50,990 nucleotides of DNA from positions 1 through 50,990 of the forward strand of contig JAFYRX010000058.1 in assembly GCA_017546725.1 (NCBI GenBank). Reading direction: 5' to 3'. Of the stretch, positions 16,760 to 39,327 are shown piece by piece. A program made the position numbers and the translations under genes. This DNA comes from Alistipes sp. GTDB taxonomy: Bacteria; Bacteroidota; Bacteroidia; Bacteroidales; Rikenellaceae. The stretch's first letter is position 1. Each line of letters opens with the position of its first letter. The notes below the pieces were generated by a model. The model did not search any database. It was given only the letters and a program-made list of their open reading frames with translations, and was not told where the DNA came from.

Positions 16760-16767
16760 TATATTTG
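16760..16767 (+). promoter_or_regulatory. -7 promoter element of the met operon
   Basis: TATATTTG matches TAnnTTTG. The expected start near 16774 gives a leader of about 220 bases before metY. The -33 position has only TTTA (16735-16738, spacing 21). Confidence 0.6.
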
Positions 16768-16788
16768 CACTTAATAAAACGTGTACAA

Positions 16789-16857
16789 ATGAGCAGACCC
16801 TGCAACATATTGTCGATGGTGAGCATCCCTATGCACTCGATGCGAATGTGCCGATAG
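16789..16857 (+). CDS. putative methionine-rich leader peptide of the met operon
   Basis: A 22-codon open frame begins with ATG about 15 bases after the predicted transcription start and ends with TAG at 16855-16857. Methionine occupies positions 1, 10, 15, 18 and 20, and cysteine positions 5 and 21. Its position ahead of metY-metX-hom is what a translation-sensing attenuator peptide would have. It overlaps the hairpins of the leader RNA, so ribosome position could change folding. There is no Shine-Dalgarno sequence, which is normal for the phylum. The caveat is that the reading frame one base off is also open through the same stretch (without a start codon), so codon bias could be chance. 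It is not a recognised family. Confidence 0.4.
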   Translation: MSRPCNILSMVSIPMHSMRMCR

Positions 16858-16895
16858 GCACTCTTTCTATCCGAGGTGACTACGTGTTGCCCTGC
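16793..16895 (+). promoter_or_regulatory. folded met leader RNA (candidate attenuator or metabolite-binding element)
   Basis: The leader can form an outer stem GCAG/CTGC (16793-16796/16892-16895) plus GCAACA/TGTTGC (16802-16807/16885-16890). It encloses three hairpins: GATG/CATC (815-818/824-827), GCAC-TCG/CGA-GTGC (833-839/843-851) and GATAG/CTATC (853-857/867-871). A three-hairpin junction closed by a stem resembles a riboswitch aptamer, but it does not match the SAM-I or SAM-II consensus known to me. A weaker AT-rich hairpin follows near 16908-16931. The regulated genes make homocysteine, so methionine, SAM or cysteine would be the expected signal. Confidence 0.5.
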
Positions 16896-16993
16896 GTCAT
16901 TTGATGCAAAATTTTCCAAGAAAATATTTTAGTTAGGTGATTTTAGTGTGTTCGGCCATTATTGTGTGGCGAATACAAAGAATATTTAGAATT

Positions 16994-18277
16994 ATGTCAG
17001 AAAAAAAGTTGCGTTTCGAAACAAAGCAGATTCACGGTGGTTATCACGTTGACCATACAGGCTCGCGTGGTGTGGCAATCTACCCCACCGCAGCCTATCA
17101 CTTCAAGAGTTGCGACTATGCGGCTCGCCTGTTTGAGTTGAGTGAGGGCGGTAACATATATACTCGTTTGCAGAATCCTACATCTTCGGCTTACGAGGAG
17201 CGTGTGGCAGCATTGTACAACGCTGTAGGAGCGTTGGCCTTGTCGTCGGGTATGTCGGCTATCTTGATTACGGTTACAGCATTGGCTTCGGCTGGTGATA
17301 ATATCGTGGCATCGCCCTATTTGTATGGAGGTACATATAATCAGTTCCGCATCTCGTTGCGTAAGTTGGGTATCGATTGCCGAATTGCAAAGAGCGAGAG
17401 CATTGAGGATTTTGAGGCCTTGATTGATGACAAGACCAAGATGATTTTTGCCGAGAGTATGGGTAACCCCACCTGCTACGTTCCCGACTTGGCCGCTTTG
17501 GGTGAGTTGGCGAAGCGCAAGGATGTACCCTTCGTTGTGGATAACACCTTTGGTGCGGCAGGCTTCCTCTGCAACCCCTTTGATTGGGGTGCAAATATCG
17601 TAGTAGATTCGGCTACCAAGTGGATTAACGGTCACGGAACAGCTATGGGCGGCATTATCGTCGATGGCGGTAACTATAATTGGGCCAACGGCAAATTCCC
17701 ACAGATTGATGGTCCGTCGGAGGGTTATCACGGACTTAATCTCTATGAGGCGTTTGGCGCAGCGGCATTTATCGTAAAGTGTCGTGTAGATGGTCTGCGC
17801 GATTTCGGTTGTTGCCCCTCGTCGTTCGACTCTTACCTTATGTTGCTCGGTTTGGAGACATTGTCGTTGCGTGTAAAGCATCAGGTGGAATCTACTTGGC
17901 GTCTGGCCGAGTATTGCCACAACCATCCGCGTGTGGAGCGAGTTAGTTTCGTAGGCTTTGAGGACCACGCAGGATATGAGAATGCCCAGAAGTATTATCG
18001 TTACGGCTCGTCGGGAGTGTTTGCAATCGAACTCAAGGGCTCGTTGGATAGCACAGTTCGCTTTGTGGAGGCTCTCAAGTTGGCAGCCAATATGACTATG
18101 ATTGGTGACTCAATTACTGTAGTTACCCACCCTGCATCTACAACTCACAAGCAGTTGAGCGAGTCGGACCTCAAGGCGGCAGGTGTTACACCTACGTTGT
18201 TGCGTATCTCGTTGGGTCTGGAGAATGTGGAGGATATAATTGAAGATTTCGAGCAGGCTTTTGCCGCTGCCGAATAA
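16994..18277 (+). CDS. metY: O-acetylhomoserine sulfhydrylase (aminocarboxypropyltransferase)
   Basis: The enzyme makes homocysteine from O-acetylhomoserine and sulfide with PLP. The start MSEKKLRFETKQIHGG is chosen; an upstream in-frame ATG at 16937 would add 19 residues that do not look like the family and lie in the leader. The protein then has 427 residues, the usual length. Seen: SRGVAIYPTAAYHF, YTRLQNPTSSAYEERVAAL, SSGMSAI, the PLP-lysine segment DSATKWINGHGTAMGG, and ITVVTHPASTTHKQ. It is the first gene of a metY-metX-hom operon and would use the acetylhomoserine made by MetX encoded 25 bases downstream. Confidence 0.95.
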   Translation: MSEKKLRFETKQIHGGYHVDHTGSRGVAIYPTAAYHFKSCDYAARLFELSEGGNIYTRLQNPTSSAYEERVAALYNAVGALALSSGMSAILITVTALASAGDNIVASPYLYGGTYNQFRISLRKLGIDCRIAKSESIEDFEALIDDKTKMIFAESMGNPTCYVPDLAALGELAKRKDVPFVVDNTFGAAGFLCNPFDWGANIVVDSATKWINGHGTAMGGIIVDGGNYNWANGKFPQIDGPSEGYHGLNLYEAFGAAAFIVKCRVDGLRDFGCCPSSFDSYLMLLGLETLSLRVKHQVESTWRLAEYCHNHPRVERVSFVGFEDHAGYENAQKYYRYGSSGVFAIELKGSLDSTVRFVEALKLAANMTMIGDSITVVTHPASTTHKQLSESDLKAAGVTPTLLRISLGLENVEDIIEDFEQAFAAAE

Positions 18278-18302: not shown

Positions 18303-19319
18303 ATGGCTCAATTTTATACATACGACAAACCTTTTGAGTTGGAGTGCGGAGCGGTGCTACCCTCGCTTACGATTGCTTACGATACGTTTGGCGAACTGAA
18401 TGCCGACAAGAGCAATGTGATATGGGTGTGTCACGCGCTGACGGCTAACTCCGATGTTGCCGATTGGTGGCCTCATACGGTTGAGGAGGGATGCTTCTTG
18501 GATCCCGCAAAATATTTCACAGTATGTGCCAACTTCCTCGGCTCGCATTATGGTACTACCGGCCCGTTGAGCATTAATCCTACTACGGGAGAGCCGTGGT
18601 ATGGCGATTTCCCGCTTGTGACCGTGCGCGATATGGTGCGTGCACATCAGGTTTTGGCCGAGCTTCTGGGCATCAGTCGAGTTAAGTTGCTCATAGGTAG
18701 TTCTATCGGTGGTTTCCAATGTTTGGAGTGGTCGATTATGCAGCCCGACTTCGCCGAGAAGGCAGCTTTCATTGCCACTACCCCTCGTACCAAGCCGTGG
18801 GCTTCGGCCTTCAATGAGTCGCAGCGTATGGCCATTGAGTGCGACCCCACTTTCGGTGAGCGTAATGCCGATGCAGGTTTGCAGGGTATGGCTACGGCTC
18901 GCAGTATAGCATTGATGAGTTATCGTGGCGGTATGGCTTACGACAAGACGCAGGAGGACGAGAACCCCGACGAGGTTGGTTTCCAGCGTCGTGTGCTGTC
19001 GTATCAGCGTTATCAGGGCGAAAAGTTGCGTCGCAGATTTAATGCCTACTCATATTACCGCTTGTCGCAGGCCGTAGATTCTCATAACGTGGGACGTGGC
19101 AGGGGTCGTGTGGAGGATGTGTTGCGCCAAATCAAGGCCAAGAGTCTGGTTGTTGCTATCACATCGGATATATTGTTTCCGCCCTCGGACCACACGATAA
19201 TGGTCGATAATATTGCCGACGTGCGCTATCACGTTATAGATTCCGATTTTGGTCACGACGGCTTTTTGGTTGAGCATCAACAATTGAACGATATTATAAT
19301 TAACTTTTTGAACGAATAA
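18303..19319 (+). CDS. metX: homoserine O-acetyltransferase
   Basis: MetX transfers acetyl from acetyl-CoA to homoserine. It is an alpha/beta hydrolase-fold protein of 338 residues. The oxyanion region is VCHALTANSDVADWW, the nucleophile serine lies in LIGSSIGGFQCLEW, the aspartate in the SDILFPPSDH stretch and the histidine in DFGHDGFLVEH. The family is mixed between acetyl and succinyl donors, and the partner MetY favours acetyl. The gene is 25 bases after metY and 19 before hom, so the three genes form one pathway module from aspartate semialdehyde to homocysteine. Confidence 0.93.
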   Translation: MAQFYTYDKPFELECGAVLPSLTIAYDTFGELNADKSNVIWVCHALTANSDVADWWPHTVEEGCFLDPAKYFTVCANFLGSHYGTTGPLSINPTTGEPWYGDFPLVTVRDMVRAHQVLAELLGISRVKLLIGSSIGGFQCLEWSIMQPDFAEKAAFIATTPRTKPWASAFNESQRMAIECDPTFGERNADAGLQGMATARSIALMSYRGGMAYDKTQEDENPDEVGFQRRVLSYQRYQGEKLRRRFNAYSYYRLSQAVDSHNVGRGRGRVEDVLRQIKAKSLVVAITSDILFPPSDHTIMVDNIADVRYHVIDSDFGHDGFLVEHQQLNDIIINFLNE

Positions 19320-19338: not shown

Positions 19339-20529
19339 ATGAACGGAAAGAAACTAAACATCGGTCTTTTTGGCTTCGGTACAGTAGGTAGTGGTCTGTA
19401 TGATGTATTGAAGCGTATCGGCTCGAAGAATGTAGAGATTAAGCGCATCTGTGTGCGAGATTTGAGCAAGCAGCGTGGTATAGAGGCGGAGTTCACTAAC
19501 AATGCTGACGATATTTTTAACGACCCCGATATCAACTTCATCGTTGAGCTGATTGACGATGCCGATGCGGCATACACTATCGTTAAACGAGCCCTGCAGA
19601 TGAGCCTTCCCGTTGTATCGGGTAACAAGAAGATGTTGGCTCACCATATCGAGGAGTTGATTGAGTTGCAGGCTCGTTACAACGTGGCGTTGTTGTACGA
19701 TGCTTCGGCTTGTGGTAGTATTCCCGTAATCCGTAACCTGGAGGAGTATTACGACAATGACCTTCTCACATCGGTTAAGGGTATCTTGAACGGCTCGTCA
19801 AACTTTATCCTCTCAAAGATTTTCAACGAGAAGATGTCGTATACCGATGCCTTGAAGTTAGCGCAGGAATTGGGCTTTGCCGAGAGCAATCCCACGCTCG
19901 ATATTGACGGTTGGGATTCACTCTTCAAACTCATCATCATCACCATCCACGCCTTTGGCCTGTATGTTGCTCCCGAGAAGATATTTACTTATGGTATCTC
20001 TAATATGAACGATGACGATATCCGTTTTGCAAACGAGAAGGAGCGTCGCTTCAAGTTGGTGGCTCACGTTGAAAAGTTGAAGGATAATAAACTCATTATG
20101 AGCGTAATGCCGCAACTTATTTCACGCAATAAGTATATCTATAGCGTCGAGGATGAGTTCAACGGAGTGGTTATCAAGGGTTTGTTCTACGACAAGCAGT
20201 TTATGTTTGGTCGTGGTGCAGGTGGTTACCCCACAGGCTCTGCTGTGTTGAGCGATATCACTGCTTGCTTGTATGACTATAAGTATGAGTATAAGAAGCG
20301 CAACGATTCGCAGATGCCCGAATATACAACCGACCACTCGTTCCGAGTATATTACCGCTACTCGGATTATGCCGACCTCGACTTGGTGAAGTTTGAGTCA
20401 GTTAGCGAAAACTATATATCGGACAACTATAAGTATGTTGTAGGTAAGGTTTCGTTGCGTGAGTTGCATAAGGTGCAGGACGAGTTACGTCGCCGCAATG
20501 TGTTTATTGCTGCCTACCCCAACGACTAA
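19339..20529 (+). CDS. hom: homoserine dehydrogenase
   Basis: The enzyme reduces aspartate semialdehyde to homoserine with NAD(P)H. The 396-residue protein starts with the Rossmann segment KLNIGLFGFGTVGSGLYDVL, continues with PVVSGNKKMLAHH, the substrate-domain motif VKGILNGSSNFILSKI and the family signature around ESNPTLDIDGWDSLFKL. The last 60 residues may be a reduced ACT-like regulatory domain. It is monofunctional, without an aspartokinase domain. Its place at the end of metY-metX suggests a homoserine dehydrogenase dedicated to methionine, separate from a threonine-branch enzyme that would be elsewhere. An intrinsic terminator follows at 20556. Confidence 0.94.
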   Translation: MNGKKLNIGLFGFGTVGSGLYDVLKRIGSKNVEIKRICVRDLSKQRGIEAEFTNNADDIFNDPDINFIVELIDDADAAYTIVKRALQMSLPVVSGNKKMLAHHIEELIELQARYNVALLYDASACGSIPVIRNLEEYYDNDLLTSVKGILNGSSNFILSKIFNEKMSYTDALKLAQELGFAESNPTLDIDGWDSLFKLIIITIHAFGLYVAPEKIFTYGISNMNDDDIRFANEKERRFKLVAHVEKLKDNKLIMSVMPQLISRNKYIYSVEDEFNGVVIKGLFYDKQFMFGRGAGGYPTGSAVLSDITACLYDYKYEYKKRNDSQMPEYTTDHSFRVYYRYSDYADLDLVKFESVSENYISDNYKYVVGKVSLRELHKVQDELRRRNVFIAAYPND

Positions 20530-38920: not shown

Positions 38921-39125
38921 AGCAAAAAAATGTTTAAGTTAATTAAAAAAATGTTTGCTTGTGGAGCAGAACCATAAATTAACTCAAAACAATCCTTTGT
39001 CGTGAAGACGAAGCCCCTTTGCGACAAACTCCGCATTGCCACCTTCGACGTGGCACAAATCTCAATTTGACGGATAAATTTAGTTTTGATTCGTCCCGTA
39101 GTCCTGCAGGTCACAATCTGTTAAA
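38921..39125 (-). other. long leader between cobalamin aptamer and first ORF of the B12 operon
   Basis: About 200 bases separate the aptamer from the small ORF. On the minus strand they can form GCCAC/GTGGC (around 39041-39057) and TTGTCG/CGACAA hairpins. No terminator with a U run is evident, so any expression platform may work on translation or through these hairpins. No open frame here is supported as a gene. Confidence 0.5.
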
Positions 39126-39316
39126 TGCAAAAGGCAGGTCTTCTGACTTATTCCATTTGTAGCGCCTTCCCAACGGTTTTCCGTCAGTGGCAAAGAATAC
39201 CACAAATAAATTCTCCTAACGAGAATGGAACTTACAGCAACAGGTATTGTCACGGATTCACACCGTATTCCCTTTTCACCTTTCGTAACGCTTGGTCCGT
39301 AAAGGCGCCTTATGCA
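39126..39316 (-). promoter_or_regulatory. cobalamin riboswitch
   Basis: The minus strand carries the hallmarks of a B12 riboswitch: AAAGGTG then AAAAGGGAATACGGTG, TGAATCCGTGAC, the B12-box-like TTTGCCACTG, a GGGAAGGCG segment, and AGTCAGAAGACCTGCC near the end. The P1 stem is TGCATAAGGC (39307-39316) with GCCTTTTGCA (39126-39135), one mismatch. It starts within a few bases of the predicted transcription start and controls the small peptide, DUF4465, PKD/Ig, btuG and btuB genes. The expected ligand is adenosylcobalamin or another cobalamin; high levels should switch the operon off. Confidence 0.95.
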
Positions 39317-39319
39317 CTG

Positions 39320-39327
39320 CAAATATA
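39320..39327 (-). promoter_or_regulatory. -7 promoter element of the B12 operon
   Basis: The minus strand reads TATATTTG, placing the transcription start at the 5' edge of the riboswitch P1 stem. The region 39328-39410 between it and the GH3 terminator holds no other recognisable feature. Confidence 0.6.

Follow-up and report, generated by a model that had tools for sequence, protein, structure and literature searches.

A methionine-rich leader reading frame that ends inside a conserved two-hairpin RNA upstream of metY-metX-hom in Alistipes and its relatives

Operons for methionine synthesis are usually controlled by repressors, SAM riboswitches or T-boxes. Among regulatory leader peptides, TnaC and SpeFL are arrest peptides, which stall the ribosome in a ligand-dependent manner and whose C-terminal residues are conserved up to the stop codon; for an RNA that acts directly on RNA polymerase, the put-like antitermination RNAs are the model. 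In Mycobacterium, cys operons have candidate leader peptides with runs of Cys codons and no conserved terminator hairpin, and Rho was raised as one possibility for these leaders in a prediction that the authors themselves called weak (PMC1262725, accessible part of the article).

The locus compared with these systems here is part of a 50,990-nucleotide stretch of DNA from an Alistipes sp., the whole of which is referred to as the window. At 16760-16993, a promoter element, TATATTTG, is followed by a 22-codon ORF (16789-16857), and the genes metY (16994), metX (18303) and hom (19339) come next. HMM matches support the assignment of a metY-metX-hom operon, all on the plus strand: metY (16994..18277) encodes an O-acetylhomoserine aminocarboxypropyltransferase (TIGR01326, 543.7 bits, cut-off 495.1), metX (18303..19319) a homoserine O-acetyltransferase (NF001209, 320.6 bits, cut-off 331; TIGR01392, 339.2, cut-off 500) and hom (19339..20529) a homoserine dehydrogenase (NF004976, 304.7 bits, cut-off 205). 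MetY and Hom thus score above their cut-offs and MetX slightly under that of NF001209. Close upstream of metY, a hairpin GTGTTCGGCCA...TGTGGCGAATAC is found at 16947-16976; by eye, several of the closest relatives have TTCGGC...GCCGAA at this place, others a different hairpin or none. Elsewhere in the window, a Cobalamin riboswitch lies on the minus strand (39116-39327; Rfam RF00174, 99.2 bits). The window genome also holds, on contig C26 (L270, 1-10347), a second feoB/hydrolase/metY/metX locus with its own copy of the leader core described below; its MetY is 93% identical to that of the window, and the locus may belong to a contaminating second species in the metagenome-assembled genome (MAG), for which 3.09% contamination is listed.

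A DNA search covering 180 genomes of the genus, among them that of the window, gave matches in 75, mostly over a short stretch around the ORF end. Since matches to this stretch would bias the sampling of sequences, relatives were collected by way of MetY, which was matched in 150 of the 180 genomes; 140 upstream regions were taken, one per genome, two of them (L104 and L123) shortened by contig ends. The window genome was counted twice, once for the window and once for contig C26. The ORF end coincides with a near-invariant core, ATGCGAATGTGCCGNTAGGCAC (16840..16861, plus strand), which encodes M-R-M-C-R-stop and extends beyond the stop codon. The core is present with at most four substitutions in 62 of the 140 regions and missing from 78. 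Fifty-seven of the 62 are exact over CGAATGTGCCGNTAGGCAC, three have GGCGC and two (L158 and L162) carry a one-base loop insertion; counted as mismatches of the best 19-mer, the distribution is 0 in 57 regions, 1 in three, 4 in two and 6-9 in the other 78, a sharp split that is unusual given the freely diverging surroundings. At least three genomes outside the 140 sampled regions (G021, G027 and G072) have the core as well.

Beyond this sample, named genomes were scanned for the exact pattern. Of the 85 stretches that matched, 80 were taken as loci; 70 of these have metY and/or metX on the same strand, no more than 6 kb downstream, which bears out the link to methionine synthesis that had been drawn from the window alone. 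Seven of the remaining ten loci lie outside Bacteroidales (Accumulibacter, Flavobacterium, Thermoanaerobaculia, Steroidobacter, Bryobacterales, Roseibium and Acidobacteria), a number expected at chance level; two are Alistipes loci whose sequence stops 35 and 196 bases from the core start, and one is from Prevotella corporis (L234, 6809-7352), where an ISAon1-type transposase gene (NF049916, 85.7 bits) occupies the place that metY has in near-identical relatives such as P. brunnea. The leaders of P. corporis and P. brunnea agree over roughly the first 215 bases after the core start and then diverge, which looks like an insertion into the leader. Within Bacteroidales, matches come from Alistipes, Tidjanibacter, Avirikenella, other Rikenellaceae, a Muribaculaceae MAG, three Prevotella species and an Odoribacteraceae MAG, in which the core stands directly before metX-hom, and the core is exact in six loci whose MetY is only 49.6-54.5% identical to that of the window. 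A family-wide scan found the pattern in 42 of 200 genomes and 5 of 22 genera, as against 0 for a reversed-pattern control. A phylum-wide scan for the exact pattern outside the genus gave matches in 4 of 394 genomes and 2 for the reversed pattern, and these four are chance-like: G503 and G334 have no leader ORF, the match in G385 lies within a terminator-like palindrome, and in G450 the ATG is not preceded by CGA and the sequence looks coding (the latter two judged by eye). An order-wide covariance search, whose first-look filter may miss true matches, returned 5 of 393 genomes including the window's own; the other four matches are weak, and their adjoining ORFs, by eye, are unlike met genes.

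The initial annotation had described a methionine-rich leader ORF ahead of metY-metX-hom, and this ORF is real insofar as its frame, its spacing from the promoter and the sequence of its end recur in the 62 core regions. The element TATATTTG (16760..16767, plus strand) has the form TAnnTTTG, which we take to be the Bacteroidota -7 promoter consensus. Among 62 leaders, 61 have it in the 160 nt preceding the core, compared with 9.6% of shuffled 160-nt windows, and from its end to the leader ATG there are 20 nt in the median (interquartile range 19-21, range 4-54, n=61); this ATG is the first one in any frame downstream of the promoter element in 57 of 61 leaders. The ORF itself (16789..16857, plus strand) comprises 22 codons and a UAG and encodes MSRPCNILSMVSIPMHSMRMCR, with five Met and two Cys among its 22 residues. 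Coding was assessed in 62 sequences (61 regions and the window; L162 omitted) over windows of fixed size, 15 to 17 codons before the CGA, which in the shortest leaders therefore extend beyond the start codon. In the 930 codons directly upstream of the core, the ORF frame is free of stops, while 69 and 25 occur in the shifted frames; over the 48 nt preceding the core, 44 and 23 of the 62 sequences are interrupted by stops in these frames. For 15 pairs picked by hand, dN/dS over the 17 codons before the CGA is 0.37 in the ORF frame versus 1.12 and 1.00 in the shifted ones. Met is conserved as a class, accounting for 165 of the 868 residues before MRMCR (19%), compared with 112 ATG among 4072 codons in ten ORFs of the window, and the peptides of relatives have 16-43 residues with 4-10 Met (n=61). 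Judged by these signs of selection, the leader ORF is presumably translated. Two further features were noted along these peptides. Ile occupies residue 7 in 37 of 61, frequently after Asn or Asp, and may reflect an RNA signal; in the three Prevotella leaders (L193, L213 and L234), the only in-frame ATG ahead of the core region is an ATGATG at its edge, and a TTG start would, by eye, yield MRTFSKNIVLCSTFMMRMCR-like peptides.

At the ORF end, conservation appears to exceed what coding would demand. The first Arg codon of the core is CGA in all 62 core regions (CGA makes up 24 of 190 Arg codons in the ten window ORFs), GGCAC is kept on the 3' side of the stop codon, and free variation within the R-M-C-R codons is confined to the wobble base of the last Arg codon, a base that also belongs to the loop. 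The alternative raised at the start, that the conservation comes from the RNA and not from coding, holds for the ORF end, while the ORF body is under coding selection; both apply side by side. The end of the ORF and the GGCAC form a hairpin, HP1 (GTGCC-GATA-GGCAC; 16848..16861, plus strand), with the UAG stop in its loop and stem. In an alignment of 61 regions and the window, from which no row was removed for poor alignment and L162 was left out (alignment A1), HP1 is paired in 99% of cells, and the paired cells differ only in three rows, by U-G in place of U-A. Because compensatory changes are absent from HP1 in these 62 sequences, the case for its pairing rests on its invariance and on the insertion variants L158 and L162, in which the stem is retained despite the altered loop. 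It is intact in the minimum-free-energy (MFE) fold of 57 of 62 leaders and has five pairs with -7.7 kcal/mol in 58 of 62. Departures from MRMCR-UAG leave the HP1 pairing intact: L158 ends in MRMCL, in L157 Gln replaces the first Met, and L162 uses UAA. The Met residues at the ORF end may accordingly be fixed by the RNA rather than by Met sensing.

HP1 is followed by a U/C-rich, G-poor linker (16862..16874, plus strand), which is of similar length and composition in relatives: it measures 12-15 nt (13 or 14 in 53 of 59) and contains 49.5% T and 8.3% G, compared with 31.6% and 14.3% downstream. Next comes HP2 (GGTGAC-TACGT-GTTGCC; 16875..16891, plus strand), the stem of which covaries, as had been anticipated for RNA in related leaders. 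All six pairs change on both sides. In alignment A2 (59 rows, 57 of them distinct, 18 of 77 references having been omitted as near-duplicates, distant leaders or badly aligned in HP2), 76 such cells were counted versus 20.2 in shuffles, and the covariation score is 0.360 versus 0.179, a value reached by none of 500 shuffles, with slid controls at 0.145 or below. The choice of rows in A2 favours structure, and the figures from A1 (62 rows) therefore stand alongside: 75 cells, a score of 0.292 versus 0.169, again reached by 0 of 500 shuffles, and 85.6% of cells paired. The HP2 loop follows the consensus U/C-A-C/U/A-G-N with rare exceptions. A third, small and variable hairpin in the window, HP3 (GCGTCATTTGATGC; 16894..16907, plus strand), occurs in only part of the relatives, and many leaders are C-rich there without a hairpin. 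The conserved structure of the leader would thus consist of HP1 and HP2.

An outer stem enclosing three hairpins (16793-16895) had initially been proposed. In the window, this MFE structure is real (-32.1 kcal/mol, z -2.3, 4 of 200 shuffles as good), but relatives do not keep it: as a conserved fold it failed, with a mean longest helix of 5.40 versus 5.24 in shuffles. Nor was excess complementarity over shuffles detected among HP1, HP2, the ORF and the downstream leader. The idea that HP1 or HP2 has a conserved alternative partner in the ORF, in the downstream leader or at the metY start was rejected, and an apparent excess for the HP1 5' arm with the upstream ORF (5.58 versus 5.08) disappeared against codon shuffles. 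A mutually exclusive antiterminator pairing, the hallmark of classical attenuators, was not found in the core leaders, and between leader stop and metY a conserved intrinsic terminator is absent, a site being present in only 4 of the 62. After HP2, C exceeds G over 60 nt in 49 of 62 leaders; directly before metY, the median C/G is equal in core and non-core genomes.

Among the 78 non-core regions, 24 contain a different leader, which consists of a Met/Cys-rich ORF (e.g. ...MSMMMVMCMCNRFRRV), an antiterminator and a terminator with a U-run. These sister leaders (L070, L083, L101, L110, L176 and 19 others) were chosen partly by score and partly by eye, two equal-scoring regions without a terminator being excluded. 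In all 24, GCCGG at the ORF end faces CCGGC in the terminator arm, and ATCCGGC lies in the 5' arm of the U-run terminator, 42-56 nt past the stop; a matching upstream segment is found in 14 and the TAnnTTTG promoter element in 23. The same hairpin-plus-T-run test that was applied to the core leaders, here run on the 260 nt directly upstream of metY, is positive in all 24 sister leaders, and the pair of GCCGG and the ATCCGG terminator segment is found in none of the 62 core regions. Searched against Rfam, L070, L083 and L101 gave one sub-threshold match, to the His leader (L083, 31.9 bits, gathering score 49, E 0.05). The sister leaders appear to be laid out like classical attenuators in which methionine is the amino acid encoded, their ORF-end segment being the predicted ON segment, which a ribosome reaching the stop would cover. 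Because these metY attenuators are Met/Cys-rich and of the classical type, methionine is likely the signal of the group; more precisely, they point to Met, perhaps together with Cys.

Comparison of the relatives establishes, by substitution and conservation patterns, a unit that stands before metY or metX and in which a promoter-linked, coding ORF ends with its stop in HP1, with HP1 and HP2 both conserved; Met as the signal, the regulatory sense and the output step of the window leader are what we infer beyond this. The reading we prefer, with chances that we consider evenly balanced, is that translation of the Met-rich leader ORF gates a conserved two-hairpin RNA that controls metY-metX-hom. 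When charged Met-tRNA is short, ribosomes would pause at Met codons upstream of HP1, both hairpins would be free to fold and the operon would be expressed; when Met is plentiful, ribosomes would reach the UAG in the HP1 loop and melt HP1, and the operon would be turned down. HP1 at the ORF end would then be the ON segment of the window type, by analogy with the sister attenuators. The least certain step is the output, for which our guess is that Rho terminates transcription within the C-rich, G-poor leader unless folded HP1/HP2 protects RNA polymerase from it. Relief from Rho is favoured, on weak ground, because the stretch after HP2 is C-rich and G-poor; direct modification of RNA polymerase and control of metY translation are equally open as outputs. 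In a more far-reaching form, which we regard as possible but tentative, HP1/HP2 would represent a new class of translation-gated RNA, one that can fold only while ribosomes are detained at the upstream Met codons and that then acts directly on RNA polymerase, Rho or a trans factor, as put-like antitermination RNAs do; the metY operon would have exchanged this element and a classical attenuator within one genus.

HP1 could also have the opposite sign, as HP1 and the U-rich linker are terminator-like in the window. In that case, HP1 with its U-rich tail would be a short intrinsic terminator or pause hairpin: a ribosome on the last Met codons (AUG-CGA-AUG) would cover the 5' arm and transcription would continue, and otherwise it would stop before HP2. 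A terminator scan of the window does score 16848-16861 plus TCTTTCTATC as its only terminator-like site (1 versus 0.1 in shuffles), at least five T in the 8 nt after HP1 are found in 32 of 62 leaders compared with 18.5% of downstream 10-mers, and the coordinates suggest that a ribosome whose A site holds the invariant AUG would extend to about the end of the HP1 5' arm. This terminator-like site and the generally U-rich, G-poor linkers are why the explanation is retained, if as an unlikely one: the stem has only five pairs, the U tract is interrupted and falls short in 30 of the 62 leaders, the covariation of HP2, 13 nt further on, is left without a reason, and in rich medium trailing ribosomes would melt HP1, which is the wrong sense for a biosynthetic operon. 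Somewhat less probable still is that MRMCR acts as a nascent-chain arrest peptide, with Met, SAM or Cys as the ligand that stalls the ribosome at the UAG, so that the parked ribosome would govern termination or translation further downstream. RMCR and the stop are kept in register and the remainder of the peptide is variable, as such a peptide would have it, but the conservation is at the nucleotide level, with CGA fixed for the first Arg and GGCAC kept past the stop; the residue and stop changes in L157, L158 and L162 all spare the HP1 pairing, and the upstream Met codons would need a separate reason.

Near-invariant loop and flank nucleotides next to a covarying stem, placed before met genes, also resemble small aptamers, so that HP1/HP2 might be a riboswitch for SAM, Met or homocysteine whose overlap with the ORF end is incidental. 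We consider this improbable, as it comprises only 11 base pairs, further conserved pairing was not found and the conserved Met-rich coding frame would go unexplained. The known families were addressed with Rfam 15: the window leader has no match at the gathering score and only chance-level ones at E of 10 or below (best E 1.3), and three further core leaders among 20 loci scanned show no plausible family at E 0.1. The absence of a covariance-model match in these core leaders rules out a known riboswitch or T-box and agrees with the initial statement that the fold fits no known SAM riboswitch class. The outcomes named at the start as speaking against the proposal, namely a lack of covariation, a lack of conserved Met codons or a match to a known riboswitch, did not occur. 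Finally, neither of the leader types was recognised by our criteria in 54 of the 140 regions, and the operon thus does not strictly need the element; that the latter is a chance or phylogenetic remnant without function is nevertheless hardly credible in view of the coding selection, the compensatory changes and the exact core in loci where MetY is only about 50% identical.

The gated two-hairpin leader that we prefer is probably a new form of leader-peptide control. Searches of open-access literature, which takes in few subscription journals, turned up no description of the window type or of the sister type, and the accessible parts of PMC2965389, PMC1262725 and PMC6230763 contain neither a Met leader peptide nor an element of the window type. 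If metY operons of one group of gut bacteria do use Met-codon leader peptides, and in two architectures, then both methionine and Bacteroidota would be added to the range of ribosome-mediated control. What sets the window type apart is a regulatory RNA that hardly changes in sequence and overlaps a stop codon, with no conserved terminator. SAM riboswitches and T-boxes commonly control met operons, but the core leaders compared with Rfam (the window leader and three others) do not match them. TnaC and SpeFL share with the window type the conserved C-terminal residues up to the stop codon; in the window type, in contrast, conservation tracks the RNA and the residues differ in L157 and L158. The sister attenuators precede the same gene and encode Met-rich peptides with similar ends (...MMMVMCMCNRFRRV, ...MMMSMRSDLRRV), but have their own GCCGG:CCGGC antiterminator segments and a strong U-run terminator. 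With the ribosome-mediated attenuators of his, trp, leu and ilv operons, the window type has in common a short, promoter-proximal ORF rich in codons for the end product, an RNA segment at the ORF end and a biosynthetic operon downstream. It differs from them in the coded amino acid, methionine, in the position of the stop inside an almost invariant hairpin, and in having neither a conserved terminator between HP2 and metY nor an antiterminator partner; since tests for both were negative, the window element is not counted as a classical attenuator. The mycobacterial cys leaders resemble it in their runs of the relevant codon and the absence of a conserved terminator, but they carry Cys runs and belong to Actinobacteria (PMC1262725, accessible part), whereas the window type combines its Met-rich ORF with one near-invariant and one covarying hairpin.
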